From contig NZ_JAGSOV010000022.1 of NCBI RefSeq assembly GCF_023898865.1, forward strand, positions 1 through 64,000: 64,000 nucleotides of DNA, written 5' to 3'. This DNA is from Pseudonocardia humida (GTDB taxonomy: Bacteria; Actinomycetota; Actinomycetes; Mycobacteriales; Pseudonocardiaceae). Of the stretch, positions 16,749-60,401 are shown one piece after another. How positions within the stretch are numbered: position 1 is the stretch's first letter; each line of letters begins with the position of its first letter. The notes beneath the pieces are model-generated. The model was given only the letters and a program-made list of their open reading frames with translations. It searched no databases and was not told the origin of the DNA. The position numbers were made by a program, and so were the translations under genes.

Positions 16749-16776
16749 ACCGGTTCCCTCCTGCAGGCGGTGCTTC

Positions 16777-42917: not shown

Positions 42918-42949
42918 GCGAGCTCGCGAGCGGATCATCGGCGCAGCGC
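42903..42949 (+). repeat. 47-base repeat copy B across a gene junction
   Basis: Identical at 43 of 47 positions to 27048-27094. It spans the last codons of glyA (ELPA stop), the ATGA overlap and the first 12 codons of soxB ([12 protein letters not shown]), in the same register as copy A. Confidence 0.7.
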
Positions 42950-44173: not shown

Positions 44174-44182
44174 GAGACCACC

Positions 44183-44464
44183 GTGCAACTCATCCGCTGC
44201 CCCTGGTGCGGCCCCCGCGAGGAGGTCGAGTTCCACTACGGCGGGCAGGCCCACGTCGCCTACCCGGACGATCCCGCCGCGCTCACCGACGAGCAGTGGG
44301 CCCGGTACGTCTTCTTCCGCGACAACCCCAAGGGCGCCTTCGCCGAGCGGTGGAGCCACAGCGCGGGCTGCCGGCGCTGGTTCAACGCGGTGCGCGACAC
44401 GCGGACCTACCGGTTCCTCGCCGTCTACAAGCCGGGCGAGGCCCGCCCGGAGGTGGCGTCGTGA
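44183..44464 (+). CDS. soxD: Sarcosine oxidase delta subunit
   Basis: A 93-residue zinc-binding subunit of the heterotetramer. The N-terminal knuckle IRCPWCGPREEVEFHYGGQAH has the CxxC pair and His, and the C-terminal SAGCRRWFNAVRDTRTY supplies the other ligand and contacts. The sequence pattern WARYVFFRDNPKGAFAERWSHSAGC is diagnostic. GTG start after TAGGAGACCACC. Its stop overlaps the soxA GTG (GTGA), as usual for coupled subunits. Confidence 0.93.
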   Translation: MQLIRCPWCGPREEVEFHYGGQAHVAYPDDPAALTDEQWARYVFFRDNPKGAFAERWSHSAGCRRWFNAVRDTRTYRFLAVYKPGEARPEVAS

Positions 44465-47253
44465 GGGTCGACGGATACGGGCGGATCGACCGTTCGCGCA
44501 CCCTGGGCTTCACCTTCGACGGCCGCAGCTACACCGGGCACCCGGGCGACACCCTGGCCTCGGCGCTGCTGGCCAACGGCGTGCACCGGATCGGGTCGAG
44601 CGTCACGCTCGGGCGGCCCCGCGGCATCAGCGCCGCCTGGTCCGAGGACGCCACCGGCCTGGTCCAGGTCGAGGAGCCCTTCCCGGAGCCGATGCTGCTG
44701 GCCACCACGGTCGAGCTGGTCGACGGGCTGGTCGCCCGCGGGCTGGGCGGGCAGGGCCGCCTCGCCGAGGTCGCCGACACCGCCCGCTACGACCGCATGC
44801 ACCACCACGTCGACACCCTGGTCGTCGGGGCCGGGCCGGCCGGGCTGCTGGCCGCGCGGGCCGCGGCCCGCCGGGGCGAGCGCGTGGCGCTGCTGGACGA
44901 CCGGCCCGAGCCCGGTGGCTCGCTCACCGGCACCGAACGCATCGACGGCCGCCCGTCGCGGGAGTTCGTCGCCGATGTCGTCGCCGAGCTCGCCACCCAC
45001 CCCGAGGTGGCGCACCTGCAGCGGACCACCGCCTTCGGCCGCTACGACGACGGGTTCGTGCTCGCCCTGCAGCACCGCACCGACCACCTCGGCGCCGACG
45101 CCCCGCGCACCCTGTCCCGCCAGCGGGTGCACCGGATCCGGGCCGGGCGCACCGTCATCGCCACCGGCGCGCACGAGCGCCCGATCGTCTTCGCCGACAA
45201 CGACCGGCCCGGGATCCTGCTCGCCGCCTCCGCGCGCGATCTCCTGCACCGCTACGGCGTGCTGGCCGGCCGCGAGGTCGTGGTGTTCACCGGCGACGAC
45301 GCCGCCTACGCTGCCGCGGTCGACCTGGCCGACGCCGGCGCCGCGGTGACGGTCGTGGAGGCCCGCCCGCAGGCGCCTGCGCACTGGGCGGGCGCGGCCG
45401 CCGACCGCGGCATCCCGGTGCTGACCGGTTCGCTGGTCGCCGGCACCGAGGGCGCGCCGGGCGACGGGCGCGTCAGCGCCGCGGTCGTCACCGGCGCCGA
45501 CGGCGCCCGGACGGTGCTCGGCTGCGACCTGCTGGCCGTCTCGGGCGGCTGGAACCCCACCGCGCACCTGTTCAGCCACGTGCGCGGCACCCTGGCCTAC
45601 GACCCGGCGCTGGGCGCGTTCCGGCCGGGCGAGGACCTCGACGGGGTCGCGGTCGTCGGGGCCGCGAACGGCACCCTCGACCTGGCCGGCTGCCTGCGCG
45701 AGGGCGCGAGCGGCGAGCGGCCGCCGTCGGCGGACGGGGAGCCCGAGCGCACCCCCGGCGCGATCGTCTGGCGGGTCGAGGGCCCGCACGACCGCCAGTT
45801 CGTCGACGTCCAGCGCGACGCCACCGTCGCCGACATCGCCCGCGCCGTGGGCGCGGGCATGCGCTCCGCCGAGCACGTCAAGCGCTACACGACCATCGGC
45901 ACCGCGCACGACCAGGGCAAGACCTCGGGCGTGCTGGCCTCGGCGATCACCGCGGAGCTGCTGGGCGTGCCGATCGAGGACCTCGGCACCACCACCTTCC
46001 GCCCGCCGTACACGCCGGTCGCGTTCGCCGCGCTGGCCGGGCGCGAGCGCGGGCAGCTGTTCGACCCCGTCCGGACGACCGCGCTGCACGCCTGGCACGT
46101 CGGGGCGGGCGCGGTGTTCGAGGACGTCGGCCAGTGGAAGCGCCCGCGCTACTACCCGCGCCCCGGCGAGGACATGGAGGCCGCGGTGCTGCGCGAGTGC
46201 GCGGCCGTGCGCGACGGCGTCGGCATCCTCGACGGCTCCACCCTCGGCAAGATCGACGTGCAGGGCCGCGACGCCGCGGTGCTGCTCGACCGCGTCTACA
46301 CGAACATGATGAGCAACCTGGCCGTCGGGCGCGTGCGCTACGGCGTGATGTGCGGCCCCGACGGCATGGTCATCGACGACGGCACCGTGCTGCGCCTGGC
46401 CGAGGACCGCTTCACGGTCATCACCACCACCGGTGGCGCGGCCAAGATCCTCGACTGGCTCGAGGAGTGGGTGCAGACCGAGTGGCCGGACCTGCGCGTG
46501 CACCTGGCCTCGGTCACCGAGCAGTGGGCGGTCTTCCCCGTCGTCGGGCCGCGCTCGCGCCATGTGATCAGCCGGCTCTTCGCCGACCTCGACGTCTCCA
46601 ACGACGCCTTCGGGTTCATGTGCTGGCGCGACACCGAGCTGGACGGGGTGCCGGTCCGGGTCGCCCGGATCAGCTTCTCCGGCGAGCTGGCCTACGAGGT
46701 CAACGTCAACGCCTGGTACGCGCCCGCCGTGTGGGAGCGGCTGCTCGCCGCCGGCGAGAAGCACGGCATCACCCCCTACGGCACCGAGACCATGCACGTC
46801 CTGCGGGCCGAGAAGGGCTACCCGATCATCGGGCAGGACACCGACGGCACCGTCACCCCGCACGACCTGGGGATGGCCTGGGCGGTGTCGAAGAAGAAGT
46901 CCGACTTCATCGGCAAGCGCTCCTTCAGCCGGGCCGAGAACACCGACCCGCTGCGCAAGCAGCTGGTCGGGCTGCTGCCCACCGACGCGCGCACCAAGAT
47001 CCCGGAGGGCTCGCAGGTGGTGGAGTTCTGCCCGGACGGCGCGCTGCCCGCGCCGCCGGTGCCGATGCTCGGGCACGTCACCTCCAGCTACCGCAGCGCC
47101 GCGCTCGGGCGCCCGTTCGCGCTGGCCCTGGTCAAGGGCGGGCGGCAGCGGGTCGGTGACGTCGTGCACGTGCCGGTCGGCGACGCCCTCGTCCCCGCCG
47201 AGATCACCTCCTCGGTCCTGGTCGACCCGGAAGGGAACCGTCGCGATGGCTGA
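44461..47253 (+). CDS. soxA: Sarcosine oxidase alpha subunit
   Basis: A 930-residue subunit. The N-terminal ferredoxin-like fold includes FTFDGRSYTGHPGDTLASALLANG. A Rossmann domain starts at TLVVGAGPAGLLAARAAARRGERVALLDD, with a second nucleotide segment ATGAHERPIVFADNDRPG. The C-terminal third is a GcvT-like folate-binding domain (RYYPRPGEDMEAAVLREC, GILDGSTLGKIDVQGRDAA, EVNVNAWYAPAVWERL, and PYGTETMHVLRAEKGYPIIGQDTDGTVTPHDLG cited by its ends). That domain passes the methyl-derived carbon to tetrahydrofolate. The GTG start overlaps soxD. The 3' end overlaps soxG by 8 bases. Confidence 0.95.
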   Translation: MRVDGYGRIDRSRTLGFTFDGRSYTGHPGDTLASALLANGVHRIGSSVTLGRPRGISAAWSEDATGLVQVEEPFPEPMLLATTVELVDGLVARGLGGQGRLAEVADTARYDRMHHHVDTLVVGAGPAGLLAARAAARRGERVALLDDRPEPGGSLTGTERIDGRPSREFVADVVAELATHPEVAHLQRTTAFGRYDDGFVLALQHRTDHLGADAPRTLSRQRVHRIRAGRTVIATGAHERPIVFADNDRPGILLAASARDLLHRYGVLAGREVVVFTGDDAAYAAAVDLADAGAAVTVVEARPQAPAHWAGAAADRGIPVLTGSLVAGTEGAPGDGRVSAAVVTGADGARTVLGCDLLAVSGGWNPTAHLFSHVRGTLAYDPALGAFRPGEDLDGVAVVGAANGTLDLAGCLREGASGERPPSADGEPERTPGAIVWRVEGPHDRQFVDVQRDATVADIARAVGAGMRSAEHVKRYTTIGTAHDQGKTSGVLASAITAELLGVPIEDLGTTTFRPPYTPVAFAALAGRERGQLFDPVRTTALHAWHVGAGAVFEDVGQWKRPRYYPRPGEDMEAAVLRECAAVRDGVGILDGSTLGKIDVQGRDAAVLLDRVYTNMMSNLAVGRVRYGVMCGPDGMVIDDGTVLRLAEDRFTVITTTGGAAKILDWLEEWVQTEWPDLRVHLASVTEQWAVFPVVGPRSRHVISRLFADLDVSNDAFGFMCWRDTELDGVPVRVARISFSGELAYEVNVNAWYAPAVWERLLAAGEKHGITPYGTETMHVLRAEKGYPIIGQDTDGTVTPHDLGMAWAVSKKKSDFIGKRSFSRAENTDPLRKQLVGLLPTDARTKIPEGSQVVEFCPDGALPAPPVPMLGHVTSSYRSAALGRPFALALVKGGRQRVGDVVHVPVGDALVPAEITSSVLVDPEGNRRDG

Positions 47254-47845
47254 CACGCTGCACCGCAGCCCCGTGCTGCGGCACCGGGAGGACGCGTTCG
47301 CCCGGCTGCCCGAGGGGCTGGAGATCGTCGCGGAGCCGGACGTCGCGCTGGCCGACCTGCGGGTGCCCGAGGGCGCCGTCGCGAGTGCGACCGGGGTCGT
47401 CGGCGTCGCGCTGCCGCTGGAGCCGAACACCTGGGTGGCCCGCCCCGGCGGCCAGGTCGTCTGGCTCGGGCCGGACGAGTGGCTGGTCAGCGACGCGGAC
47501 GAGCGCCCGGAGGCGCTGGAGGCGGCGTTGCGCGCGGCGGTCGCACCGCACGACGGCGCCGCCGTGGACGTCTCGGCCCAGCGCACCGCCGTGCGGCTGC
47601 GCGGGCGCCACGCCCGCGCCCTGCTCGCCACCGGCTGCGCCCTGGACCTGCACCCGTCGGTGTTCGGGGCGGGCCGCAGCGCGCAGACCACGCTCGGGCT
47701 GGTCGGGGTCGTGCTGCTGGCCCTCGACGACCGCGGCGAGGACTACCGGATCCTGGTGCGGCCCTCCTTCGCCGGCTACCTGGCCGACTGGCTGCTCGAC
47801 GCCGCCGTCGAGTTCGAGCCGCCCGGCCCCGCCGCGGCGCTCTGA
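47246..47845 (+). CDS. soxG: Sarcosine oxidase gamma subunit
   Basis: A 199-residue subunit of the heterotetramer. Conserved elements are LHRSPVLRHREDAFARL at the start, LPLEPNTWVARPGGQVVWLGPDEWLV, VDVSAQRTAVRLRGRHARALLATGCALDLHP (cited by its ends), and RPSFAGYLADWLLDAA near the C-terminus. The ATG at 47246 has AAGGGAA upstream and overlaps soxA. It completes the soxBDAG set, so the operon encodes a full tetrameric oxidase. The last residues EFEPPGPAAAL are a normal loose tail. Confidence 0.93.
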   Translation: MADTLHRSPVLRHREDAFARLPEGLEIVAEPDVALADLRVPEGAVASATGVVGVALPLEPNTWVARPGGQVVWLGPDEWLVSDADERPEALEAALRAAVAPHDGAAVDVSAQRTAVRLRGRHARALLATGCALDLHPSVFGAGRSAQTTLGLVGVVLLALDDRGEDYRILVRPSFAGYLADWLLDAAVEFEPPGPAAAL

Positions 47846-47879
47846 TGGCGCCCGGCGCCGAGCTCGGGCGGCACCACCC

Positions 47880-48497
47880 ATGCTCCTGACGGTCCTCGAC
47901 CTCGCCGGCATCGCCGTGTTCGCCGCCTCCGGCGCGCTGGCCGGGGTCGCGGCACGGTTGGACCTGTTCGGCGTGGTCACCGTGGCCGTGCTGACCGGGC
48001 TGGGCGGCGGCGTCATCCGCGACGTCCTGCTCGGGCTCACTCCCCCGACCAGCCTGCGCCGCTGGCCCTACCTGCTCGCCCCCGTCGTCGTCGGGCTGCT
48101 GGTGTTCGCCTTCCACACCTGGGTGACCCGGCTGCGGCGGGCCATCGAGTGGGCCGACGCCTTCGGGCTGGCCCTGTTCGCCACGGCCGGGTCCGGCGCG
48201 GCGCTGGCGGCGGGCGCCCCTGGCGTCACCGCCGTCGTGGTCGGGCTGATCACCGCGATCGGTGGCGGCGTCATCCGCGACGTCCTGGTCGGGGAGGTGC
48301 CGCAGGTGCTGCGGCGCGAGGTCTACGCGGTCCCGGCCCTGCTCGGCGCGGCCGTGGTGGTGGTCGGGCACGACATGGGGCTGCCGCCCGTCCCGGTGGC
48401 GATCGGCGCCGCGGGTCTCGTGCTCGCCGTGCGGATCGTGGCGATGCTGCGGGGTTGGAACGCCCCGCTGCCCCCGGCGCCGCGGGACCGGCCGTGA
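47880..48497 (+). CDS. TRIC/UPF0126-family membrane protein, probable glycine transporter
   Basis: A 205-residue protein of about seven helices with a two-fold internal repeat; each half has the hallmark GGGVIRDVL (at TGLGGGVIRDVLLGLTPP and TAIGGGVIRDVLVGEVPQ). This is the PF03458 (UPF0126/TRIC-like) family. Members were first compared to intracellular cation channels; fitness studies later tied several to glycine transport, as I recall. Here it lies 34 bases after soxG in an operon that makes and uses glycine, which favours glycine uptake or export. The ATG at 47880 is the family start. Confidence 0.85.
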   Translation: MLLTVLDLAGIAVFAASGALAGVAARLDLFGVVTVAVLTGLGGGVIRDVLLGLTPPTSLRRWPYLLAPVVVGLLVFAFHTWVTRLRRAIEWADAFGLALFATAGSGAALAAGAPGVTAVVVGLITAIGGGVIRDVLVGEVPQVLRREVYAVPALLGAAVVVVGHDMGLPPVPVAIGAAGLVLAVRIVAMLRGWNAPLPPAPRDRP

Positions 48498-48517
48498 TGG
48501 GGCCGGTCGGGGCGGGC

Positions 48518-49219
48518 TCAGATCACCGCGCGGATGGCCCGCTCGAACCCGGTCACGTGGTCGCGGCTGATCGTCTCCGCGGTGTCGGCCTCGCCGGCGG
48601 CGATCGCGCGCAGCAGCCCGGCGTGCTCCCCCACGTGCCGGTCGACGTGGGCGAGGCGGTCGAGGAACAGGCAGTGGATGCGCGTGGCCAGGTTGTGGTA
48701 GCGCACGAGGGTGTCCTGCAGGTGCGGGTTGCCCGCCGCGCGGTAGATCGCCCGGTGCACGCGCAGGTCCCAGCGCATCAGCTCGGTGCGGTCGACCGCC
48801 CCGGCGTCGAGCCCGCCGGTGGCCTCGGCCAGCTCGGCCAGCTCGGTGCGCATGCCGGACCCGGCCACCTCGGCCGCCCGGCGCGCGGCCAGTGGTTCGA
48901 GCTGCACCCGGATCTCGGAGATGTAGGCCAGGTCGGTGATGTCGACCCCGGTGGCGAACGTGCCCCGACGGGGGTAGGCGACCACGAGCCGGTCGACCTC
49001 CAGGCGCTTGAGCGCCTCGCGGACCGGCGTGCGCCCCACCCCCAGGGAGCTGCTCAGCGCGGCGTCGTCGATCGGGGCCATCGGCGGGATGTCCAGCATG
49101 ATCAGCCGGTCCTGGATGGCGGTGTAGGCCTGGTCGGCCAGCGATGTCGGCGCCGGCGGCGCCGTCGCGTGCTCCTGCGGGGCGGCGGTCACCCCGGCAT
49201 CGTAGTACGTGCGAACCAT
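48518..49219 (-). CDS. GntR-family regulator (FCD subfamily)
   Basis: A repressor of about 233 residues. The winged helix-turn-helix is SLADQAYTAIQDRLIMLDIPPMAPIDDAALSSSLGVGRTPVREALKRLEVDRLVVAYPRRGTFATGVD (cited by its ends), and an all-helical FCD ligand domain follows from about residue 100 (YISEIRVQLEPLAARRAAE, RWDLRVHRAIYRAAGNPHL, HVGEHAGLLRAIAAGEAD with metal-type histidines). The ATG at 49217-49219 is taken; in-frame starts at 49237 (ATG) and 49192 (GTG) are alternatives. It sits between the sarcosine operon and divergent sdaA. Palindromes at 49242-49274 are probably its own operators. Confidence 0.88.
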   Translation of the reverse strand: MVRTYYDAGVTAAPQEHATAPPAPTSLADQAYTAIQDRLIMLDIPPMAPIDDAALSSSLGVGRTPVREALKRLEVDRLVVAYPRRGTFATGVDITDLAYISEIRVQLEPLAARRAAEVAGSGMRTELAELAEATGGLDAGAVDRTELMRWDLRVHRAIYRAAGNPHLQDTLVRYHNLATRIHCLFLDRLAHVDRHVGEHAGLLRAIAAGEADTAETISRDHVTGFERAIRAVI

Positions 49220-49241
49220 CCGTAGCGACAGCGACATCCAG

Positions 49242-49274
49242 TTGATGTACCAATCGGAATGACCTGACATATCA
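49242..49274. promoter_or_regulatory. sdaA promoter with two GntR-type sites
   Basis: TTGATGTACCAA (49242-49253) and CTGACATATCAC (49265-49276) resemble TTGATATATCAG of the glyA promoter; the shared core is TGA[TC][AG]TA[TC]CA. TTGATG (-35 like) and TGACAT (-10 like) are 17 bases apart, so a bound repressor would cover both elements. Confidence 0.55.
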
Positions 49275-49297
49275 CCGGCGCACGGCAGAGGAGCGAC

Positions 49298-50671
49298 ATG
49301 ACCGTCTCGGTGTTCGACCTGTTCAAGGTCGGTGTCGGCCCGTCGAGCTCGCACACGGTCGGGCCGATGCGCGCGGCCTTCCTGTTCGCCACGAGGCTGC
49401 GGGAGTCCGGCCTGCTCGCGCGCACCGCGGCGGTCCGCTGCGAGCTGTTCGGGTCGCTCGGGGCCACCGGGCACGGCCACGGCTCGGTGAAGGCCGTGGT
49501 GCTGGGCCTGTCCGGCGAGCAGCCCCACCTCGTCGACCCCGCCGCGGCCGGCCCGGCCGTCGAGGCGGTGCGCACCGACCGGCGGCTGCGGCTCGTCGGC
49601 ACCCACGAGATCGACTTCTCGGTCGACGACGACGTCGTGCTGCACCGCCGCAAGCGGCTCGACTTCCACTCCAACGGCATGGTCTTCACCGCCGCCGACG
49701 CCGAGGGCACCGAGATCGAGCGCCGCGAGTACTACTCGGTCGGCGGCGGGTTCGTGCTCGACGAGGACGAGGCCGGCCGCCCGGTCCTGGTCGCGGACGA
49801 CACCCCGGTGCGCTACCCGTTCACCACCGGCGACGGGCTGCTCGCGCTGACCCGCGAGTCCGGGCTGCGCATCAGCGACGTCATGCTGGCCAACGAGCTG
49901 GCCCGGCGCGATGAGGACGAGATCCGTGAAGGCCTGCTGCGCATCTGGGCGGTCATGCGCGAGTGCATCGAGCGCGGCACCCGCACCGGCGGTGTGCTCC
50001 CCGGCGGGCTGAAGGTCCGCCGCCGCGCCGCGGGGCTGCGCGAGCGCCTGGAGGCCGACGCCGACCGCACCGACCCGCTGCACGCCATGGAGTGGGTCAC
50101 CCTCTCCGCGCTCGCGGTCAACGAGGAGAACGCCGCGGGCGGGCGCGTGGTCACCGCGCCGACCAACGGCGCGGCCGGGATCGTGCCCGCGGTCCTGCAC
50201 TACGCGGCGACGTTCCTGCCCTCCTTCGACGACGACGCGGTGGTGCGGTTCCTGCTCACCGCGGGCGCGATCGGGCTGCTGTTCAAGGAGAACGCCTCGA
50301 TCTCCGGGGCCGAGGTCGGCTGCCAGGGCGAGGTCGGCTCCGCCTGCTCGATGGCCGCCGGCGCGCTCGCCGAGGTCCTGGGCGGCACCCCCGAGCAGGT
50401 CGAGAACGCCGCCGAGATCGGCATCGAGCACAACCTGGGCCTGACCTGCGACCCGGTCGGCGGCCTGGTGCAGATCCCGTGCATCGAGCGCAACGCCGTC
50501 GCCTCGGTCAAGGCCATCACCGCCGCCCGGATGGCGGTGCGCGGCGACGGCACCCACCACGTGTCGCTGGACAAGGCGATCAAGACCATGCGCGAGACCG
50601 GCGCGGACATGAAGGACAAGTACAAGGAGACCGCTCGCGGCGGGCTCGCGCTCAACATCGTGGAGTGCTGA
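49298..50671 (+). CDS. sdaA: L-serine ammonia-lyase, iron-sulfur type
   Basis: A 457-residue single-chain L-serine dehydratase giving pyruvate and ammonia. N-terminal half: [45 protein letters not shown], and the ACT-like segment. C-terminal catalytic half: [41 protein letters not shown], and [21 protein letters not shown], whose cysteines hold the 4Fe-4S cluster. Length is normal. Divergent from the GntR regulator across the candidate operators. It completes the sarcosine to glycine to serine to pyruvate chain. Confidence 0.95.
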
Positions 50672-50681
50672 GCCCGCCGGC

Positions 50682-51176
50682 TCAGCCCAGCACGGCGCTG
50701 ACGAACTCCTGGGCGCGTTCGCGCAGACCGGCCCGGCGCTGCTCGACGTCCGTGCCCGGCGTGGGCTTCCGCGCCGCGGTCGCCTTCTCGACCCGCACGT
50801 GCTCCGCGCACGCGAGGTCGCCGCACACGTAGGTGCCCGCGGTGTCGCCGTTGCGACCGGCGGGGCCGGGTCGCCGGGCCACGAACAGCTCCACCCGCCC
50901 GGGGGCGTGGGTGGTGCGGCACAGCGCGCACATCGCGGTCGTGCGCGCGCCCCGCTCCCCCGCCCGCAGCATGATCCCCACCGGCCCGTCGGCGCCGGGG
51001 ACGAGCAGGACGCCGCGCTCGGGCGCCTTCGGGTCGCGCCAGCCCAGCACGTCGTCGACGGAGTCGAGGTCGAGGTCGCGCACCCAGGCCGGCAGGGTCA
51101 TCCGGGCCGCCTCGCCCTTGGTCGAGTTCGCCATGGCGCCGCGGATGCGGGCTTCGGTGCTGGTCGTCCGGGTCAT
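50682..51176 (-). CDS. FBP-domain treble-clef zinc-finger protein
   Basis: A 164-residue protein. The C-terminal half has two cysteine pairs, TAMCALCRTTHAPG and GTYVCGDLACAEHVRV, in the treble-clef arrangement of FBP-type proteins, which bind translation elongation factor G or the ribosome (family knowledge). The N-terminal segment LPAWVRDLDLDSVDDVLGWRDPK and IMLRAGERGAR is typical. The ATG at 51174-51176 is used. It converges with sdaA (10 bases apart) and lies 90 bases downstream of mtnK on the same strand, so it may be a tail gene of that operon or independent. Confidence 0.8.
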   Translation of the reverse strand: MTRTTSTEARIRGAMANSTKGEAARMTLPAWVRDLDLDSVDDVLGWRDPKAPERGVLLVPGADGPVGIMLRAGERGARTTAMCALCRTTHAPGRVELFVARRPGPAGRNGDTAGTYVCGDLACAEHVRVEKATAARKPTPGTDVEQRRAGLRERAQEFVSAVLG

Positions 51177-51266
51177 CGTCCGTCCGTCGTCGGGGTCGCC
51201 TCCACCCTAGGCAGCGCGGCGACCACCCGCCTCCGGATTGCGCTGCGCATCAGCGCCGCCACGGGG

Positions 51267-52526
51267 TCAGCCGCGGGTCGCCGCCTCCCCCAGCAGCTCC
51301 CCCGCGACCTCCTCCGCCCGCCGCGGCGCGCTGTCGACCTCCCGCTCGCGCACCCACCGCCGCGCGGTCCGCAGCACCCCCCGCGCGGCGCCTTCGCGCA
51401 GCTCGGGCGGGAGCGTCTCGATGTCGGTGGTCTTGGCCAGCCCGACGATGCGCCGGGTCATCTTGGCCGCGCCGAACAGCCACGCCTCCGAGCGCCACGT
51501 GCCGAGCAGGTGCTCGCGCAGGTCGTCGCCGAACATGCGGGGGTCGACGCGCCCGTCGGTCCAGAGCCGGCGGAACTCGGCCTCGAACGCGTCCCAGGTG
51601 CGCGCGCACAGCCCCAGCGCCCACGCGGCGCGCTCGTCGTCGCCGAGCGCGGTGGCCCGGGCCGCGGCGATCACGTAGTTGCCCCACAGGGCGCCGAGGT
51701 CGAACGCCACCGGGCCGTAGAAGGCGAACTCGGGGTCGAAGGCCTTCGCCGAGTCGACCGGGCCCTGCTCGCCGTCGGCGGCGCGCACCATCACCGAGCC
51801 GGTGTGCAGGTCGCCGTGCACGAGCGCCTCGGCCCGCGTCATGAACGTCCACTTCGCCCGGCCCATGGCATCGACCATCGTGCGGTCGGCGGCCAGCTCG
51901 GCCGCGTCGCCCTCGTTGGCCGGCAGCACGCTGTTGCGCCCCGCGTCGACGTAGGGCTCGGTGAACACCAGGTCCTCGGTGATCAGGCACAGCTCGGGGT
52001 TGACGCTGCTGGCCAGGGTGGCCGCGCGCGCGGCCGCGTCCATGCCCAGCACCGAGGTGCCGAAGGCGACGGCGGCGACGTAGCGGCCCATCGCCTCGGC
52101 CGCGCCGTCGTGGCGCAGGCCGTCGTTGAGCGCCGTGCGCCAGACGCGGTGGTCGGAGAGGTCCTCGATGGCCAGGACGTAGCGGTCGGGGTCGTAGTCG
52201 TGCAGCCGGGCCACGAGCCCGGGGGCGAGCCTGCCGTGCAGCCGCAGCGACTCGGCCTCGTGGCGGGCCCGGTCGGGCCCCAGCGGCCAGCTCGGGCCGA
52301 CCAGGCGCACGTAGGGCAGGGCCTGCTTCAGCACGAGCCCGCGCCCGGCGCCGTCGGCCAGGATGAACACCAGGTTGAGGTTGCCGTCGCCGATCTCGCG
52401 CACCGAGCGGATGTCGCCGCCGTCGATGTGCTCGTGCAGCGCGGGCCGGGAGCGCACGTAGGCGGGCGCGGTCTCCGGGGTGAGCAGCTCGTAGGGCGCG
52501 TCGAGCGCCGTCTGCGTGGTCGTCAT
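51267..52526 (-). CDS. mtnK: S-methyl-5-thioribose kinase
   Basis: A 419-residue kinase of the MtnK/ChoK fold that phosphorylates 5-methylthioribose at C1. Landmarks are YELLTPETAPAYVRSRPAL, EIGDGNLNLVFIL (nucleotide loop), GLVLKQALPYVRLVGPSWPL, the catalytic loop EALVHGDLHTGSVMV (HGDxHxG), and the metal Asp in AFDPEFAFYGPVAFDLGALWGN. It ends the five-gene operon that starts with mtnA at 57421; GAGGAG is 5 bases before the ATG, and the gap after the permease gene is 22 bases. A 5-deoxyribose kinase role (DrdK-like) is also possible. Confidence 0.92.
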   Translation of the reverse strand: MTTTQTALDAPYELLTPETAPAYVRSRPALHEHIDGGDIRSVREIGDGNLNLVFILADGAGRGLVLKQALPYVRLVGPSWPLGPDRARHEAESLRLHGRLAPGLVARLHDYDPDRYVLAIEDLSDHRVWRTALNDGLRHDGAAEAMGRYVAAVAFGTSVLGMDAAARAATLASSVNPELCLITEDLVFTEPYVDAGRNSVLPANEGDAAELAADRTMVDAMGRAKWTFMTRAEALVHGDLHTGSVMVRAADGEQGPVDSAKAFDPEFAFYGPVAFDLGALWGNYVIAAARATALGDDERAAWALGLCARTWDAFEAEFRRLWTDGRVDPRMFGDDLREHLLGTWRSEAWLFGAAKMTRRIVGLAKTTDIETLPPELREGAARGVLRTARRWVREREVDSAPRRAEEVAGELLGEAATRG

Positions 52527-52548
52527 CGTCGCTCCTCGGATGGCTGGT

Positions 52549-53643
52549 TCAGATGACGGCGGCGGGCGCGTACCGGGAGCGGCGCCGCGACAGCGTGAAC
52601 GAGAACAGCAGGGCCAGCAGCAGCACGATCCCCTTGACGATGTCCTGGCCGTAGTAGGGGAAGCCGGTGATCGTCAGGCCGGTGATCAGGATGCCGATCA
52701 GGACCGCGCCCAGGATCGTGCCCCAGGCGTTGGGCCGGCCCAGGCCGAGCACCGAGGTGCCTACCAGCGCCACGGCGACGGCGTCGAGCAGCAGGGAGTT
52801 GCCCGCGCTGATGTCGCCCTGGCCGATCCGCGAGGACAGGATGAGCCCGCCGATGGCGGCGAACACCCCGGACAGCACGTAGGCCAGCGCGCGGTAGCGA
52901 CCGACCCGCACCCCGGCCAGCCGCGCGGCCTCGGGGTTGGCGCCCACCGCGTACATCAGCCGGCCCCAGCGGGTGCGGTTGAGGAAGAACCAGGTGCCCA
53001 CGGCGAGCAGGCCGACGATGACGACCGGCAGCGGCACCGGACCGAGGAACGCCCGGTCGATGGCCAGGAAGTCGGGGGTGAAGCGGCCGGGGGCCACGCT
53101 GCCGTCGCGCAGCACCATGCCCGAGGACACCGACTGGCCGTCCACCGGCACCAGCTTCAGCCCCATGATCACGAACATCGAGGCCAGCGTGGCGAGCAGG
53201 TCGGGTATCCGCAGCACCACGATGAGCAGCGCGTTCAGCGCCCCGACCAGCGCGCCCGCGAGCAGCACGACCGCGATGGCCACGCCGCCGACCTGCGCGT
53301 AGAACACCATGGCCATCGCCGAGATGGTCACCGACATGCCGGCGACCGAGCCGACCGACAGGTCGAGCCCGCCCACCACCATCGTCAGGGTCACCCCGAG
53401 CCCGACGACGGCCACCACCGAGGCGAACTTCAGCATCGAGAACAGCGTGCTCGGCTGCCGGAAGCTCTCCTCGGAGACGGCGAAGAAGACGAACAGCCCC
53501 ACCGTGATCGCGATGAACCCGTAGCGGACGGCGAACTCGCGCACGCCCGCTCCCGTTGACGGCCGTGCCACCGCCACGGCCTGCTTGTCGGGCCCGGGCG
53601 CGGTCTGCTTCGCCCCGCTCCCGTCCACCTCCGGCAGCGCCAC
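52549..53643 (-). CDS. Sugar-type ABC transporter permease (RbsC class)
   Basis: A 364-residue permease with about ten helices. Family features include VAVVGLGVTLTMVVGGLDLSVGSVAGMSVTISAMAM (the G.DLSVG motif, cited by its ends), VDGQSVSSGMVLRDGS, GRLMYAVGANPEAARLAGVRVGRYRALAYVLSGVFA (cited by its ends), LLDAVAVALVGTSVLGLGRPN and GTILGAVLIGILITGLTITG. The GTG start at 53641-53643 directly abuts the stop of the ABC ATPase gene. It forms the homodimeric channel of the operon's importer. Substrate is inferred from mtnA and mtnK in the same operon. Confidence 0.9.
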   Translation of the reverse strand: MALPEVDGSGAKQTAPGPDKQAVAVARPSTGAGVREFAVRYGFIAITVGLFVFFAVSEESFRQPSTLFSMLKFASVVAVVGLGVTLTMVVGGLDLSVGSVAGMSVTISAMAMVFYAQVGGVAIAVVLLAGALVGALNALLIVVLRIPDLLATLASMFVIMGLKLVPVDGQSVSSGMVLRDGSVAPGRFTPDFLAIDRAFLGPVPLPVVIVGLLAVGTWFFLNRTRWGRLMYAVGANPEAARLAGVRVGRYRALAYVLSGVFAAIGGLILSSRIGQGDISAGNSLLLDAVAVALVGTSVLGLGRPNAWGTILGAVLIGILITGLTITGFPYYGQDIVKGIVLLLALLFSFTLSRRRSRYAPAAVI

Positions 53644-55164
53644 TCAGGCCACGTCCTCTCCGTCGAGCGCCGCCATCCGGGCGACGATCAGATCCCGGCT
53701 GACCCCGGCGGTGCGCGCATCCAGCCGGGGAACGCCCTCGGCCAGCACGACCACCCGGTCGGCCACTTCCAGCACCTCGTCCACGTCCGCGGCCAGCACG
53801 ACCACCGCCGAACCGCCCGCGGCCAGCTCGCGCACCCGGCGCGACAGGTCGTGGCGGGCCCCGATGTCGATGCCGCGGAACGGCTCGTCGAGCAGCATCA
53901 CCCTCGGTTGCCCGCGGAGCCAGCGCCCCACGACGACCTTCTGCTGGTTGCCGCCCGACAGCGCGTCGACGCCCTGGTCCTCCGAGGACGCGACCACGTC
54001 GAAGCGGTCGATGACGTCGCGCCCGTCGGCGCGCTCCTCCCCGCGCCGCAGGACCCCGCGCGGCGAGAGCGCCCGCAGGAACGGCAGCGACGCGGTGCGC
54101 GCGATCGACCAGCCGGGCAGCATCGCCTGCGCGGCCCGGTCCTCGGGCACCAGGTAGACCTCGCGCGCCACCGCCGCGGCCGGTGACGTCGGCGCGTAGG
54201 GCTCGTCGCCCAGGCGCATCGTGCCCGCCGCGAAGGGCTCGGCGCCGAACACGCCCATCGCGAGCTCGCTCTTGCCCGCGCCGAGCAGCCCGACGACGCC
54301 GGTGACCTCGCCGCGGCGCAGCTCCAGGTCGAACGGGGCGGCGCCGGCGAACAGCCGCACCCCCCGCAGCTCCAGCGCGACCTCGTCGCCGCGCCGGTCG
54401 TGGACCTCGGCGAGCTCGCGGGCGCCCCGCTCGCCGAGCATGTCGCGCACCGCGGCCTGCCAGTCGTATGGCCGGGTCTGCTCGGAGCGGATGCTGCCGT
54501 CGCGCAGCACCGCGATCCGGTCGGCCAGCCGCTCGATCTCCCCGATGCGGTGCGAGACGTAGAGCACGGCGACCCCGCCGCGGCGCATGTCGTCGATGAC
54601 GCCGAAGAGCCGTTCGGTCTCCGCTCCCGACAGCGCCGAGGTCGGCTCGTCGAGCACCAGCAGCTTCGGGCGCCGCGAGAGCGCCCTGGCCAGCAGCACG
54701 AGCTGCTGGTCGGCGATGCCGAGCTCGTGGACGTCACCGCGCAGGACCGCGTCGCTCCAGTCCAGCCCGAGGCCCGCCGCGACCTCGCGGGCGGCGGGCA
54801 GCAGCCGGCGCAGCGAGCCGACGGCGGGCAGGTCGCCCTGCGCGATGCGTTCGAAGAGCAGGTTCTCGGCCACCGACAGGCCGGGGACCACGCCCTCGTC
54901 GATCCGCTGGTGGACCGTCTCGATGCCGAGGCGGCGGGCGGCCTGCGGGCCGTCGGCCGGGTCGGGCGACGCGCCGTCCACGCTGATCCGGCCGTGCTGC
55001 AGGGGGTGCACCCCGGCCAGCACCTTGATCAGCGTGGACTTGCCCGCGCCGTTGGCGCCCATCAGCGCGAGCACCTCGCCGGCGTCCCACTCGATGCTCA
55101 CCCCTCGCAGCACCGGGTTGCCGCCGAACGCGTGCCGCACGTCGTGCAGCTCGATCGTCGCCAC
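53644..55164 (-). CDS. Sugar-type ABC transporter ATPase, two ABC domains (RbsA class)
   Basis: A 506-residue tandem ATPase. N-terminal domain: Walker A GANGAGKST, Q-loop IETVHQRIDEGVVPGLSVAENLL, Walker B LLVLDEPTSALS. C-terminal domain: degenerate Walker A GLLGAGKSE, signature ALSGGNQQKVVVGRWL, and Walker B VMLLDEPFRGIDIGA, as in RbsA/MglA. The GTG at 55162-55164 is used, with GAAGG about 10 bases upstream; the frame open to 56559 is a shadow. It follows the binding-protein gene by 53 bases and abuts the permease gene. Confidence 0.9.
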   Translation of the reverse strand: MATIELHDVRHAFGGNPVLRGVSIEWDAGEVLALMGANGAGKSTLIKVLAGVHPLQHGRISVDGASPDPADGPQAARRLGIETVHQRIDEGVVPGLSVAENLLFERIAQGDLPAVGSLRRLLPAAREVAAGLGLDWSDAVLRGDVHELGIADQQLVLLARALSRRPKLLVLDEPTSALSGAETERLFGVIDDMRRGGVAVLYVSHRIGEIERLADRIAVLRDGSIRSEQTRPYDWQAAVRDMLGERGARELAEVHDRRGDEVALELRGVRLFAGAAPFDLELRRGEVTGVVGLLGAGKSELAMGVFGAEPFAAGTMRLGDEPYAPTSPAAAVAREVYLVPEDRAAQAMLPGWSIARTASLPFLRALSPRGVLRRGEERADGRDVIDRFDVVASSEDQGVDALSGGNQQKVVVGRWLRGQPRVMLLDEPFRGIDIGARHDLSRRVRELAAGGSAVVVLAADVDEVLEVADRVVVLAEGVPRLDARTAGVSRDLIVARMAALDGEDVA

Positions 55165-55217
55165 TAGACCATCGCCTTCAGATCCGCCCGCCGCTCGGTC
55201 CGTCCGGACGCCGCCCG

Positions 55218-56348
55218 TCAGAAGGAGACGACCGGGATCCAGTCGGCCGTGGCGACCCCGGTCATGTTCAGCTCCGGCAGCTTGGCCCGCAGCTGGTCGA
55301 GGTTCTGGATGCCGTTCTGCTTGAGCAGGTCCTGGGTCACCAGCGTCCCCGGGAAGACGACCTCGCGGGAGTCGAGCTGCTCGGCCAGCTCCAGCGCGGT
55401 CACCCGGACCACGGCGGCGCCGATGGCGTTGGGGTCGGTGGTCGCGGTGGCGACCCACGGGCTGCCCTCGGCCGTCATGACCTCGATGTCGGCGGTGGAG
55501 ATGTCCACGCCGTAGACCTTGATCTGGGACTGCAGGTTGTTCTGCTGCACCGCCGAGACCGTGCCCTTGGTCAGCTCGTCGTAGGGCGCGAAGATGCCGG
55601 CGACCCCCGGGTTCGCCTTCAGCGCCGCGTCGACCAGCTGGGCGTTGTCGGTGGCGACGGAGTTGGTGAACTCGCCGACGAAGAACTTCTGGTCCCAGGC
55701 GTTCTGCGCGCGCACCTGCTCCCAGACCGCGTTGCGGCGGTCGAGCGGGGCGATGCCCAGGACGTTGACGTAGCCGACCGGCTGGTTCGGCCCGATGTCC
55801 TCGCTCATCTTGTCCAGGATCAGGCTCGCCAGGTTCGCGTCGTCCTGGGCCGTCTCCACGGCCTCCGGGGCGCAGGCGCTGATCTCGACGTCGTAGATGA
55901 CGACCGGCAGCCCCGCGGTGAGCCCGTCGTTGATCAGCGGGCACATCGTGTCGGACTGCCCGTGGTCGACGATGATCGCGTCGACGCCGGAGCCGATCGC
56001 GGTCTGCATGTCGGTGGCCTGGCGGGCGTTGTCGGCCTGGGCGTCGTAGACCTGGATCTCCATGCCCAGCGCCTGCGCCTGCTGGCGGGCGCCGTTGGTC
56101 CACTGCTGGAAGTAGTCGCCGGCGCCGCTGTTCTGCACGATCGCGATCTTGACCGGCTCGGCCCCGTCGAACGGGGCGGGCTTCTGCCCGGTGGCCTCGC
56201 CGACCGCGGCCGTCTCCGGGGGCGGGGCCGCGGACCCGCTCGGGCCGAGGTCCTGCGAGCAGGCGGCGAGCAGCAGGGCGGAGCCCAGCAGGGCGGCCAC
56301 GGCCCGGGCCGTGGCCCGACCGCGCGTCACGAGTGTCGTCTTTGACAT
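55218..56348 (-). CDS. Sugar-type ABC transporter binding lipoprotein (RbsB class)
   Basis: A 376-residue periplasmic-binding-type protein. The signal peptide ends in a lipobox LAAC with Cys30. The mature part has VKIAIVQNSGAGDYFQQWTNGARQQAQALG (cited by its ends), YDAQADNARQATDMQTAIGSGVDAIIVDHG, VVIYDVEISACAPE, GYVNVLGIAPLDRRNAVWE and IFAPYDELTKGTVSAVQQNNL. Two cysteines in the mature domain (DTMCPLI and SACAPE) could form a disulfide. It is second in the operon, 35 bases after mtnA. Probable ligand: 5-methylthioribose or another 5-deoxy pentose, inferred from neighbours only. Confidence 0.9.
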   Translation of the reverse strand: MSKTTLVTRGRATARAVAALLGSALLLAACSQDLGPSGSAAPPPETAAVGEATGQKPAPFDGAEPVKIAIVQNSGAGDYFQQWTNGARQQAQALGMEIQVYDAQADNARQATDMQTAIGSGVDAIIVDHGQSDTMCPLINDGLTAGLPVVIYDVEISACAPEAVETAQDDANLASLILDKMSEDIGPNQPVGYVNVLGIAPLDRRNAVWEQVRAQNAWDQKFFVGEFTNSVATDNAQLVDAALKANPGVAGIFAPYDELTKGTVSAVQQNNLQSQIKVYGVDISTADIEVMTAEGSPWVATATTDPNAIGAAVVRVTALELAEQLDSREVVFPGTLVTQDLLKQNGIQNLDQLRAKLPELNMTGVATADWIPVVSF

Positions 56349-56383
56349 CTTTTCGACATCTTCCTTCGGGGGTGGGCGCCTTC

Positions 56384-57421
<1,038 letters not shown>

Positions 57422-57439
57422 GTCGCCTCCCGGATCTGT

Positions 57440-57493
57440 CAGTCGTCCTACAACTTCCGCGGACCCGCACGCTAGGGAGATGTAGGACGACTG
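57440..57493. promoter_or_regulatory. Paired GntR operator sites
   Basis: Perfect 13-base inverted arms CAGTCGTCCTACA (57440-57452) and TGTAGGACGACTG (57481-57493) are 28 bases apart. The left copy contains the GntR-like dyad GTCGTCCTACAAC. One copy lies near the mtnA start and one 20 bases before the regulator start, which fits control of both directions. A TACGCT -10-like box at 57501-57506 may give a leaderless regulator transcript. Confidence 0.75.
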
Positions 57494-57513
57494 TCAACCG
57501 TTACGCTGGGCCC

Positions 57514-58242
57514 GTGTCGACGTCGTTGGGTGCCCGCACCTCGCTGGCCCGCAGGCTGGCCGAGGACGTGCGGTCCCGGATCATGTCCGGGGAGTACGCG
57601 CCGGGAGAGCGCTTGCCCAGCGAGGCGGAGCTGGTCCGCCACTACGAGGTCTCCCGGGTCACGGTGCGCACCGCGTTGCGCACGCTGGAGGCCCAGGGCC
57701 TGGTCGACGTCCGGCACGGCTCCGGCTCGTTCGTCAGCGACTTCGGCGCCGGCATCCGCGCCGGCCTGCAGGAGCTGCGCTCGATCAGCGACACCATCCG
57801 GGAGATGGGCCACGAGCCGCGCATGGAGCGCCACGCGCGGCAGCGGCGCCCGGCGACCCCGGGCGAGGCCGCCAAGCTCGGCATCGCCGCGGGCGAGGAC
57901 GTGCTCGCCGTGGAGCGGATGATCCTCGCCGACGAGCGGGCGGTGGCCTACTCCTACGACGTGGTCCCGCTGGCCGGCTTCCCCGACGAGCTGGTCGAGC
58001 AGCTCGGCGCGGGGAGCCTGTTCGGCACCCTGGACGCGGCCGGGCTGATGCCCGCCCGCGCCCTCGCCGAGGTGCACGCCATCAGCGACGAGACGATCGG
58101 CTGGGGCCCGCAGAAGCCGGTGCCCGGGCTCTACGTCCTGCTCGACCAGGTGCACTTCAGCCGGCGCGGCAGCGCCGTGGCCCACAGCCGCACCTACTTC
58201 GTCGAGGGCCGGTTCCAGTTCGTGGTGCTGCGGACCAACTGA
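57514..58242 (+). CDS. GntR-family regulator (HutC/UTRA subfamily)
   Basis: A 242-residue repressor. The winged helix-turn-helix includes LARRLAEDVRSRIMSGEYAPGERLPSEAELVRHYEVSRVTVRTALRTLEAQGLVDVRHGSGSFV (cited by its ends). A UTRA effector domain follows, with HEPRMERHARQRRPATPGEAAKLGI, VLAVERMILADERAVAYSYDVVPL and the C-terminal SRTYFVEGRFQFVVLR. The GTG at 57514 is leaderless-like. It is divergent from the mtnA-mtnK operon and upstream of an MFS gene, and is the likely regulator of both, responding to a phosphosugar or sugar. Confidence 0.9.
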   Translation: MSTSLGARTSLARRLAEDVRSRIMSGEYAPGERLPSEAELVRHYEVSRVTVRTALRTLEAQGLVDVRHGSGSFVSDFGAGIRAGLQELRSISDTIREMGHEPRMERHARQRRPATPGEAAKLGIAAGEDVLAVERMILADERAVAYSYDVVPLAGFPDELVEQLGAGSLFGTLDAAGLMPARALAEVHAISDETIGWGPQKPVPGLYVLLDQVHFSRRGSAVAHSRTYFVEGRFQFVVLRTN

Positions 58243-58252
58243 TCCCGCGACC

Positions 58253-59458
58253 GTGGACGTCGAACCCCAGGCCGGCCCCGGGCTCGCCGACCGGCGGGCC
58301 CGGGCGGCCGTCGCGGCGCTGTTCTTCACCAACGGCGCCCTGTTCGCCAACCTCATCCCGCGCTACCCGCAGATCAAGGACGACCTCGGCCTCGGCAACG
58401 CCGCCTACGGGCTGTCGGTGGCGGCCTTCCCCACCGGCGCGATCGTGGCCGGGCTGGCGGCCGGGGTGCTCGTGCGCCGCTTCGGGTCGGCCCGGGTGGC
58501 CACCGCGGGCACGTTCCTCACCGGGGCGGGCGCGCTGGCCGCCGGGGTCGCGCCCGCGGTCTGGGTGTTCGCGGGCGCGCTGTTCCTCGCCGGCGCGATG
58601 GACGCCGTCACCGACGTCGCGCAGAACGCCCACGGCCTGCGGGTGCAGCGCCGCTACCGGCGCTCGATCATCAACTCGTTCCACGCGATCTGGTCGATCG
58701 GCGCGGTGACCGGCGGCGTGATGGCCGCCGCGGCGATCGCCGCCGGGCTGCCGCGCGGCGTGCACCTCACGATCTCCGCGGCCCTGTTCGCGGTCGTCGC
58801 GCTGGTGGCGCTGCGGTTCTGCCTGCCCGGCCCGGAGGTGGAGCCGACCCCGGACGCGACCGGCGACCCGCGCGCGCGGACCGGGACCCTCGGCACCCGC
58901 ACCGTCCTGGTCGTCGCGGCGCTGGTGGTGATCGCGACGGCGGGCACGGTCGTGGAGGACGCGGGCAACTCGTGGGCCGCGCTCTACCTGGCCGACTCGC
59001 TCTCCGCCCCGGCCGCGGTGGCGGCCTGGGGCTACATCGCGCTGGTCGGCGCCCAGTTCGTCGGGCGCCTGGGCGGCGACCGGCTGGTCGACCGGTTCGG
59101 GCAGCGCGCGGTCGCCCGCGCGGGCGGGCTGGTGGCCGCGGCCGGCATGGGCCTGGCCCTCGCGGTGCCCACCGTCCCCGGCACGATCCTCGGCTTCGCC
59201 GCCGCCGGGCTGGGCGTGGCGACGCTGGTGCCCGCGGCCATGCACGAGGCCGACGAGCTCCCCGGGCTCAAGCCCGGCACCGGGCTCACCGTCGTGTCGT
59301 GGCTGATGCGGCTGGGCTTCCTGCTGTCCCCGCCCGTGGTGGGCGCGGTCGCCGACGCGAGCAGCCTGCGGCTGGGCCTTCTCGTGGTCCCGGCCGCGGG
59401 GCTGCTCGTCGTGGTCACCGCGGGGGTGCTGTCCCGCCGCGCGTCCGCGCCGCGCTGA
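58253..59458 (+). CDS. MFS transporter, FucP-like/YbjJ-like
   Basis: A 401-residue twelve-helix transporter. N-terminal half: ALFFTNGALFANLIPRYPQIKDDLGLGNAAYGLSVAAFPTGAIVAG (cited by its ends), VRRFGSARVATAGTFLTGAG. Central: AMDAVTDVAQNAHGLRVQRRYRRSIINSFHAIWSIGAVTGG (cited by its ends), with the motif typical of YbjJ/fucose-permease-like branches; YIALVGAQFVGRLGGDRLVDRFGQRAV in the second half. The GTG start is 10 bases after the GntR stop, so they are co-transcribed. It may export a toxic excess of the pathway's sugar or import a second substrate. Confidence 0.8.
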   Translation: MDVEPQAGPGLADRRARAAVAALFFTNGALFANLIPRYPQIKDDLGLGNAAYGLSVAAFPTGAIVAGLAAGVLVRRFGSARVATAGTFLTGAGALAAGVAPAVWVFAGALFLAGAMDAVTDVAQNAHGLRVQRRYRRSIINSFHAIWSIGAVTGGVMAAAAIAAGLPRGVHLTISAALFAVVALVALRFCLPGPEVEPTPDATGDPRARTGTLGTRTVLVVAALVVIATAGTVVEDAGNSWAALYLADSLSAPAAVAAWGYIALVGAQFVGRLGGDRLVDRFGQRAVARAGGLVAAAGMGLALAVPTVPGTILGFAAAGLGVATLVPAAMHEADELPGLKPGTGLTVVSWLMRLGFLLSPPVVGAVADASSLRLGLLVVPAAGLLVVVTAGVLSRRASAPR

Positions 59459-59498
59459 CCCCGTCGGACCGGGCCGGTCGGCGTCGCGATCCGCGGCG

Positions 59499-60401
59499 TC
59501 AGAGGTCGAGCACGTCCGTGCAGGCGAAGGTCCGCTCCGGGTCGCGGTCGGCGAAGTAGGCGCCGAGCCCGGCGTCGAGGTCGGCTGTGGTCCACACGTC
59601 GCCGGTGGCGTCGAAGCGGCGCTCGACGGTCGGCGGGGCCATCAGCGCGACCATGCCGCTGTGCACGACGAAGACCTGGCCGCTGATCCCCCGGGCCGCC
59701 GGTGTCGCGAGGTAGGCGACCAGCGGGGCGACCTGGTCGGGCGAGAGCGGGTCGGGGCCCTCGGTCGGGGCGGGGCCGAACACCTGCGCGGTCATCGCCG
59801 TGCGGGCGCGGGGGCAGATCGCGTTGACCGTGACGCCGTAGCGGCGCAGGGCGCGGGAGGAGGAGACGGTCAGGGCGGCGATGCCGGCCTTGGCCGCGGC
59901 GTAGTTGGGCTGGCCGACGGAGCCGAGCAGGAACGCCTCGGAGGTGCTGTTCACGATGCGCCCGTGGGCCGGCGCGCCGGTCTGCTTGAACTGCGCCCGC
60001 CAGTGCGCGGCGGCGTTGCGCGAGAGCAGGAAGTGCCCGCGCAGGTGCACCCGCACCACGAGGTCCCACTCCTCGTCGGACATGCTGAACAGCATCCGGT
60101 CGCGCAGCACGCCGGCGTTGTTCACCACGACGTGCAGGCCGCCGAACCGGTCGAGGGCCGTGGCGACCAGCGCGTCGGCGGTGGCCCGCTCGCCGACGTC
60201 GCCCGCCACGAGGACGGCCTTCGCGCCGATCCGCTCGATCTCCTCGACCACCGCCGCGGCGGCGGGGTCGACGTCGTTGACGACGACGTCGGCGCCCGCG
60301 CCGGCCAGCGCGAGCGCCTCGGCCCGGCCCAGCCCGGCGCCCGCCCCGGTGACGACCGCGACCTTGCCGCTCAGGCTCAACGCCCCCGGTGTGCGGTCCA
60401 C
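59499..60401 (-). CDS. hsd4A: Short-chain dehydrogenase, Hsd4A-like (steroid side-chain)
   Basis: A 300-residue SDR. Coenzyme motif VVTGAGAGLGRAEALAL, with VVNDVDPAAAAVVEE after strand 2; NNAGVLRDRMLFSMSDEEWDLVVRVHLRGHF; catalytic Ser in IVNSTSEAFLLG and YAAAKAGI (Tyr-x-x-x-Lys); ICPRARTAM. This long form with the RDRMLF segment resembles the dehydrogenase part of multifunctional enzyme type 2. In M. tuberculosis Hsd4A (Rv3502c) is divergent from fadE26-fadE27, and that layout is repeated here with KstR-type boxes between. I use the GTG at 60399-60401, six bases after GAGGGAG; an upstream GTG at 60422 would add seven residues. Confidence 0.75.
   Translation of the reverse strand: MDRTPGALSLSGKVAVVTGAGAGLGRAEALALAGAGADVVVNDVDPAAAAVVEEIERIGAKAVLVAGDVGERATADALVATALDRFGGLHVVVNNAGVLRDRMLFSMSDEEWDLVVRVHLRGHFLLSRNAAAHWRAQFKQTGAPAHGRIVNSTSEAFLLGSVGQPNYAAAKAGIAALTVSSSRALRRYGVTVNAICPRARTAMTAQVFGPAPTEGPDPLSPDQVAPLVAYLATPAARGISGQVFVVHSGMVALMAPPTVERRFDATGDVWTTADLDAGLGAYFADRDPERTFACTDVLDL

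Follow-up and report, generated by a model that had tools for sequence, protein, structure and literature searches.

A predicted 5-methylthioribose uptake operon facing a GntR-type regulator gene in Pseudonocardia humida

Predicted sugar-type ABC importers for 5-methylthioribose (MTR) have been described in gammaproteobacteria and Bacillus cereus, where the mtrACB/mtn clusters link them to the MtnK and MtnA genes (PMC3228920; here and below, literature statements refer to individual passages of the papers cited). Likewise, the Drd and dihydroxyacetone phosphate (DHAP) shunt clusters encode a kinase and an isomerase for MTR and 5-deoxyribose, sometimes together with a putative sugar transporter (PMC6079011, PMC10986504, PMC12632272). 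We analyzed a stretch of 64,000 nucleotides of the draft genome of Pseudonocardia humida (GCF_023898865.1, contig NZ_JAGSOV010000022.1, positions 1 to 64,000 of the forward strand; hereafter, the window), in which mtnA, the genes of an RbsABC-type importer and mtnK form an operon divergent from a GntR-type regulator gene (Table 1). We consider it quite likely that the operon is inducible and serves to scavenge MTR, and probably 5-deoxyribose too.

The mtrACB/mtn clusters carry metboxes or an S-box (an S-adenosylmethionine riboswitch) as well as further mtn genes (PMC3228920), whereas for the window's operon the GntR gene is local, Rfam gave no match at window positions 50000 to 60000, and genes for downstream steps are absent. 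The Drd/DHAP-shunt clusters carry a class II aldolase gene (PMC6079011, PMC10986504, PMC12632272), which is missing from the window's cluster, and that of E. coli has a single putative permease gene and the repressor MtnR; the term "GntR" occurs zero times in the main text of the E. coli paper. Streptomyces loci (e.g., locus L087) share the same binding protein family, ATPase, permease, mtnK and mtnA, but in L087 the stretch separating mtnA from the binding protein gene holds mtnB, mtnC and mtnD on the opposite strand, and no such genes adjoin the window's operon. Among open-licence PMC papers, we found no description of a GntR-controlled MTR importer in Actinobacteria, nor of a fused aldolase/dehydrogenase in MTR uptake clusters. 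As far as that literature goes, three features of such clusters are new, namely a GntR gene accompanied by an operator, back ends that can be exchanged, and the fusion of an aldolase to a dehydrogenase; the window's operon is a good yet ordinary-looking instance.

The original prediction described five genes in the order mtnA, importer and mtnK with short gaps, a divergent GntR gene and a paired operator, all of which was borne out by coordinates, family searches and inverted arms. From mtnA to mtnK, the five minus-strand genes are separated by 35, 53, 0 and 22 bases, and the mtnA–GntR gap measures 92 bases. Both enzymes exceeded curated NCBIfam cut-offs, with MtnA scoring 389 bits against TIGR00512 (cut-off 279) and MtnK 358 bits against TIGR01767 (cut-off 275). 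MtnA residues C155 and D235, which we take to be the catalytic Cys and Asp, are invariant in 8/8 aligned sequences and align with the B. subtilis enzyme. The hallmarks of MTR kinases are a G-loop (GXGNXN), a W-loop, an HGD loop, a DXE motif and an RR motif (PMC2194712); MtnK carries GDGNLN (residues 46 to 51), W80, HGD (237 to 239), DPE (264 to 266) and RR (358 to 359), and its motifs and cap are the same as in MTR kinases. Judging from family membership and intact active sites, MtnK and MtnA most likely act on MTR/5-deoxyribose.

The importer is a complete CUT2 (RbsABC) system, consisting of a binding protein, an ATPase with two ABC domains and a permease. Among the models listed, the three proteins passed no substrate-specific NCBIfam model; AraG/RbsA-type models matched the ATPase below their own cut-offs, and the match of the binding protein to the RbsB model was weak (43 bits; cut-off 337). 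The best solved relative of the binding protein is 4ry8, titled 5-methylthioribose transporter binding protein, ahead of ribose binders. More specifically, the window protein has binding pocket residues in common with 4ry8 and also shares its changes at several ribose-contact positions. These findings support the earlier claim of free-sugar import by the ABC system, which most likely takes in MTR and similar 5-deoxy sugars. The nearest named record is the binding protein of P. lacus H11425 (92% identical), and one scan returned no viral relatives.

To place the operon within its genus, we used 60 sampled Pseudonocardia genomes, 12 of which matched MtnK at E ≤ 0.001; after two weak partial matches (37% and 33% identity) were dropped, full-length MtnK was present in 10, including the window's genome. 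All nine others carry the five genes and the divergent GntR gene (tblastn), although in draft L021 four of the six matches (GntR, mtnA, ATPase and permease) come in pieces, reflecting either sequencing error or decay. Protein identity to the window's genes is 76 to 97% in five relatives and about 39 to 55% in the other four. In midpoint-rooted FastTree trees of the binding protein, MtnK and MtnA, these two groups do not form one clade, so acquisition by the genus probably happened two or more times; which groups are sister varies by protein, and in the MtnK tree the basal branch of the distant group is poorly supported (0.31).

The regulator combines a GntR helix-turn-helix with a UTRA domain and is not HutC itself (105 bits; cut-off 220). 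In the gap, inverted arms at 57437–57458 and 57475–57496 are 86% complementary, and both operator copies are kept in 5/5 close relatives. Across six whole genomes (the window's and those of the five relatives), the exact 14-mer GTCGTCCTACRACT occurs 9 times, every time inside the mtnA–GntR gap. This confinement supports GntR being a local regulator in the window's group, and on the same grounds we rejected a wider GntR regulon. Sites with at most one mismatch were rarer in the six genomes than those of a reversed-pattern control, as were sites with two mismatches in the own genome. The gap holds an exact site at three of the four more distant Pseudonocardia loci.

A wider comparison drew on one scan of named genomes, which yielded 144 binding-protein relatives; the best 80 of 144 were kept, a sample that is skewed to Streptomyces and to the two peptide patterns used, and in which three loci (L065 to L067) coincide with members of the nine-locus same-genus set. 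A GntR match divergent from mtnA within 700 bases was found at 14/80 loci, which are not all independent: three are Pseudonocardia of the same-genus set, and several others are mutually close. The motif GTYGT-N3-ACRAC is present in 12 of these 14 gaps, and the two gaps without it belong to Streptomyces loci whose regulators are merely 36 to 39% similar. In total, the 14 loci (240,916 bases) contain 15 such motifs, 13 of them in the gap. One of the other two, at the Arsenicicoccus locus (L141:6980–6992), is a second operator copy that precedes the start of a class II aldolase gene by 12 bases, a position suggesting control of this aldolase by the same regulator.

The enzymes encoded elsewhere in the own genome bear on what the operon is for. 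An internal housekeeping role, in which MTR or 5-deoxyribose derived from 5'-methylthioadenosine or 5'-deoxyadenosine is detoxified in the cell and the importer only retrieves leakage, would fit the activity of MtnK- and MtnA-type enzymes in other bacteria (PMC6079011) and the presence of one inosine-uridine hydrolase-family (nucleoside-hydrolase-family) gene in the own genome. However, the single PF01048 (MtnN/MtnP superfamily) protein matches purine-nucleoside phosphorylase (TIGR01698, 325 bits; cut-off 303) and falls far below the MTAP cut-off (67 bits versus 275), and the occurrence of full-length MtnK in merely one-sixth of the sampled genus would be odd for housekeeping, so we regard this explanation as unlikely. 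Just one PF01048 protein is likewise present in 7/10 mtnK-bearing Pseudonocardia genomes. Full methionine salvage for sulfur, with mtnB, mtnC and mtnD elsewhere in the genome, is markedly less probable still, even though these genes are matched at 48/80 related loci, L087 among them: six own-genome matches to MtnB all stay under its cut-off of 137 (at most 67.5 bits in the genome search, and 82.8 bits when the C28 aldolase was scanned in full), the one match to MtnD (acireductone dioxygenase, ARD) scores 22.4 against a cut-off of 27, ARD exceeds its cut-off in 0/10 mtnK-bearing Pseudonocardia, and the RuBisCO family is unmatched in the own genome (3/10 mtnK-bearing genomes have a RuBisCO-family match, without type assignment). 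As MtnB and MtnD were not found, the gain is likely carbon rather than methionine. An importer of ribose or another pentose, accompanied by a kinase and an isomerase whose specificity has shifted, is equally improbable, because the RbsABC-type architecture and weak RbsB-model match that would speak for it are set against the distance of that match from its cut-off, the changed ribose-contact positions, and kinase motifs and cap unchanged relative to MTR kinases.

We therefore prefer a scavenging operon, as the original prediction had proposed, and this is supported by the lack of MtnB and MtnD above cut-off and by the sole MtnN/MtnP-superfamily protein being a purine-nucleoside phosphorylase. 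It was also correct that mtnB, mtnC, mtnD and a class II aldolase gene are not adjacent. The genome search proposed at that stage gave a mixed answer: neither MtnB nor MtnD was recovered over cut-off, and class II aldolases (PF00596) are present, with 7 matches, all on contigs other than the window's, but none is tied to the operon. More specifically, C61 is an L-ribulose-5-phosphate 4-epimerase (over cut-off), C24 is a RhaD-type fusion whose surroundings read by eye as a rhamnose cluster, C63 and C128 are PF00596 matches without assignment, and C6, C28 and C107 are FucA-like, their top-scoring model being ribulose-1-phosphate aldolase, yet under equivalog cut-offs. We rejected C6 as a dedicated partner, since C6, C28 and C107 are about equally close to the Arsenicicoccus aldolase (53, 51 and 51%). 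In the 60-genome search, none of the five close relatives that bear mtnK (one of them only 83% complete) showed a close C6 ortholog, the best match being 54%; where aldolase regions of relatives were compared, C28 and C107 were each present in some relatives but not others. By eye, PfkB-like kinase genes adjoin C28 and C107. Two own-genome regions (L030:9441–11026 and L031:9167–10815) were read by eye as a FucA-like aldolase gene followed by a PfkB-like kinase gene, one pair after ABC transporter genes and the other after P450- and ferredoxin-like genes.

In the mechanism we propose, the GntR protein would occupy the two GTYGT-N3-ACRAC-like sites in the 92-base gap and repress both promoters, and a sugar or sugar phosphate would release it. 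The lipoprotein would capture the free sugar outside the cell for import by the RbsA/RbsC-type transporter, as homology to the MTR-binding protein suggests. MtnK would then phosphorylate the imported sugar at C1, and MtnA would isomerize the product to a 5-substituted ribulose 1-phosphate, both steps being predicted from family membership and intact active sites. Finally, as happens in the DHAP shunt, an unlinked FucA-like class II aldolase might cleave this product into DHAP and either methylthioacetaldehyde or acetaldehyde. We give this last step about an even chance; it is the most economical guess, because aldolases for fuculose and rhamnulose phosphates, like DrdA, tolerate a range of aldehydes (PMC6079011) and E. 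coli ATCC 25922, which has the DHAP shunt, can use added 5-deoxyribose for growth (PMC10986504).

Several observations weigh against an inducible scavenging operon of this kind: (i) no aldolase or mtnBCD match lies near the operon at 9/9 same-genus loci; (ii) no aldolase ortholog is common to all close relatives, so different strains may use different aldolases; (iii) the inosine-uridine hydrolase-family gene could be an intracellular source of MTR or 5-deoxyribose; (iv) the four more distant Pseudonocardia loci hold five further exact operator sites outside the gap; (v) a consensus scan found no sigma-70-type promoter; and (vi) the draft genome is 98.8% complete, so its absences are not absolute.

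Table 1. Features of the MTR uptake locus, in window coordinates
Feature	Position	Strand	Basis or remark
mtnK, methylthioribose kinase	51267-52526	-	TIGR01767; G-loop, W-loop, HGD, DXE, RR motifs
RbsC-type permease	52549-53643	-	PF02653 (BPD_transp_2), 132 bits
RbsA-type ATPase, two ABC domains	53644-55164	-	Two PF00005 (ABC_tran) stretches
Lipoprotein sugar-binding protein, RbsB/CUT2 type, predicted 5-methylthioribose/5-deoxyribose binder	55218-56348	-	Peripla_BP_4
mtnA, methylthioribose-1-phosphate isomerase	56384-57421	-	TIGR00512; C155 and D235
Operator copy 1, AGTCGTCCTACAACT	57441-57455	no strand	
Operator copy 2, inverted	57478-57492	no strand	One mismatch versus pattern AGTYGTCCTACRACT
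HutC-type GntR regulator	57514-58242	+	PF00392 (GntR) and PF07702 (UTRA); divergent from mtnA
MFS transporter	58253-59458	+	PF07690 (MFS_1); 10 bases after GntR gene

All five core genes were matched in 67 of the 80 fetched stretches, and several of the 13 others end at contig edges. The genes accompanying this core differed (tblastn): mtnB, mtnC and mtnD at 48/80 loci (46 of 48 titled Streptomyces), a RhaD-type aldolase/dehydrogenase fusion at 16, the fusion plus a separate aldolase at 3, a separate aldolase alone at 1 (Arsenicicoccus), and no back end at 12. These 12 comprise three Pseudonocardia loci, four Nocardia loci, L072 and four stretches that are short or truncated; at the truncated end of one of the four, L074, a fusion gene begins. 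In L087, MtnC and ARD each exceed their cut-offs, and a PF00596 protein, known from that domain match, occupies the place of MtnB. The L068 fusion scored 524 bits against RhaD_aldol-ADH (cut-off 568) and is therefore related to the rhamnose enzyme without being scored as such. It is an even call, in our estimate, whether these loci represent a GntR-controlled MTR/5-deoxypentose cassette (GTYGT-N3-ACRAC), mobile in Actinobacteria and Chloroflexi, with a fixed front end and exchangeable back ends (mtnBCD for sulfur, the fused RhaD-type enzyme, or a separate aldolase), of which Pseudonocardia lost or never had one and relies on promiscuous sugar-phosphate aldolases.

The fusion joins a RhaD-type class II aldolase to a short-chain dehydrogenase (L068:6944–8935, L085:6534–8504, L088:6664–8679, L073:5317–7287 and L077:16859–18841), and its hosts are uncultured Actinobacteria, Acidimicrobiia and Chloroflexi, in two sub-lineages that are about 30% identical. 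Near mtnK and mtnA, two of the fusion-type clusters also carry a DeoC/LacD-family aldolase gene (L073:7338–8222 and, by eye, L077:13996–14793) and, in L077, an RbsD/FucU-family gene (16416–16862).

S-adenosylmethionine chemistry leaves MTR and 5-deoxyribose as waste products, which some cells excrete; E. coli excretes MTR (PMC3228920). If our reading of the operon is true, a dedicated importer with a local regulator would allow Actinobacteria to take up and eat these wastes, beyond in-cell recycling, and the locus offers a defined regulator, operator and transporter. The fused aldolase/dehydrogenase may represent another way in which the DHAP shunt ends and, if so, would give DHAP and an oxidized C2 product from MTR or 5-deoxyribose phosphates in one polypeptide.

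The original prediction also placed the MFS transporter gene with GntR opposite the operon; both genes are present and GntR is conserved, but the MFS gene is not. It was rejected as a member of the system and is probably a passenger, because it is unmatched at the 9 same-genus loci (one of which, L021, has just 1.1 kb past its GntR match) and the 80 named loci. One terminator-like site, a number equal to chance expectation, falls within the permease gene. Directly downstream of mtnK, window positions 50682–51176 encode an FBP C-terminal treble-clef zinc-finger protein (PF16571), and positions 42733–50671 were read by eye as genes for sarcosine oxidase subunits, a FadR/GntR-type regulator and L-serine dehydratase.
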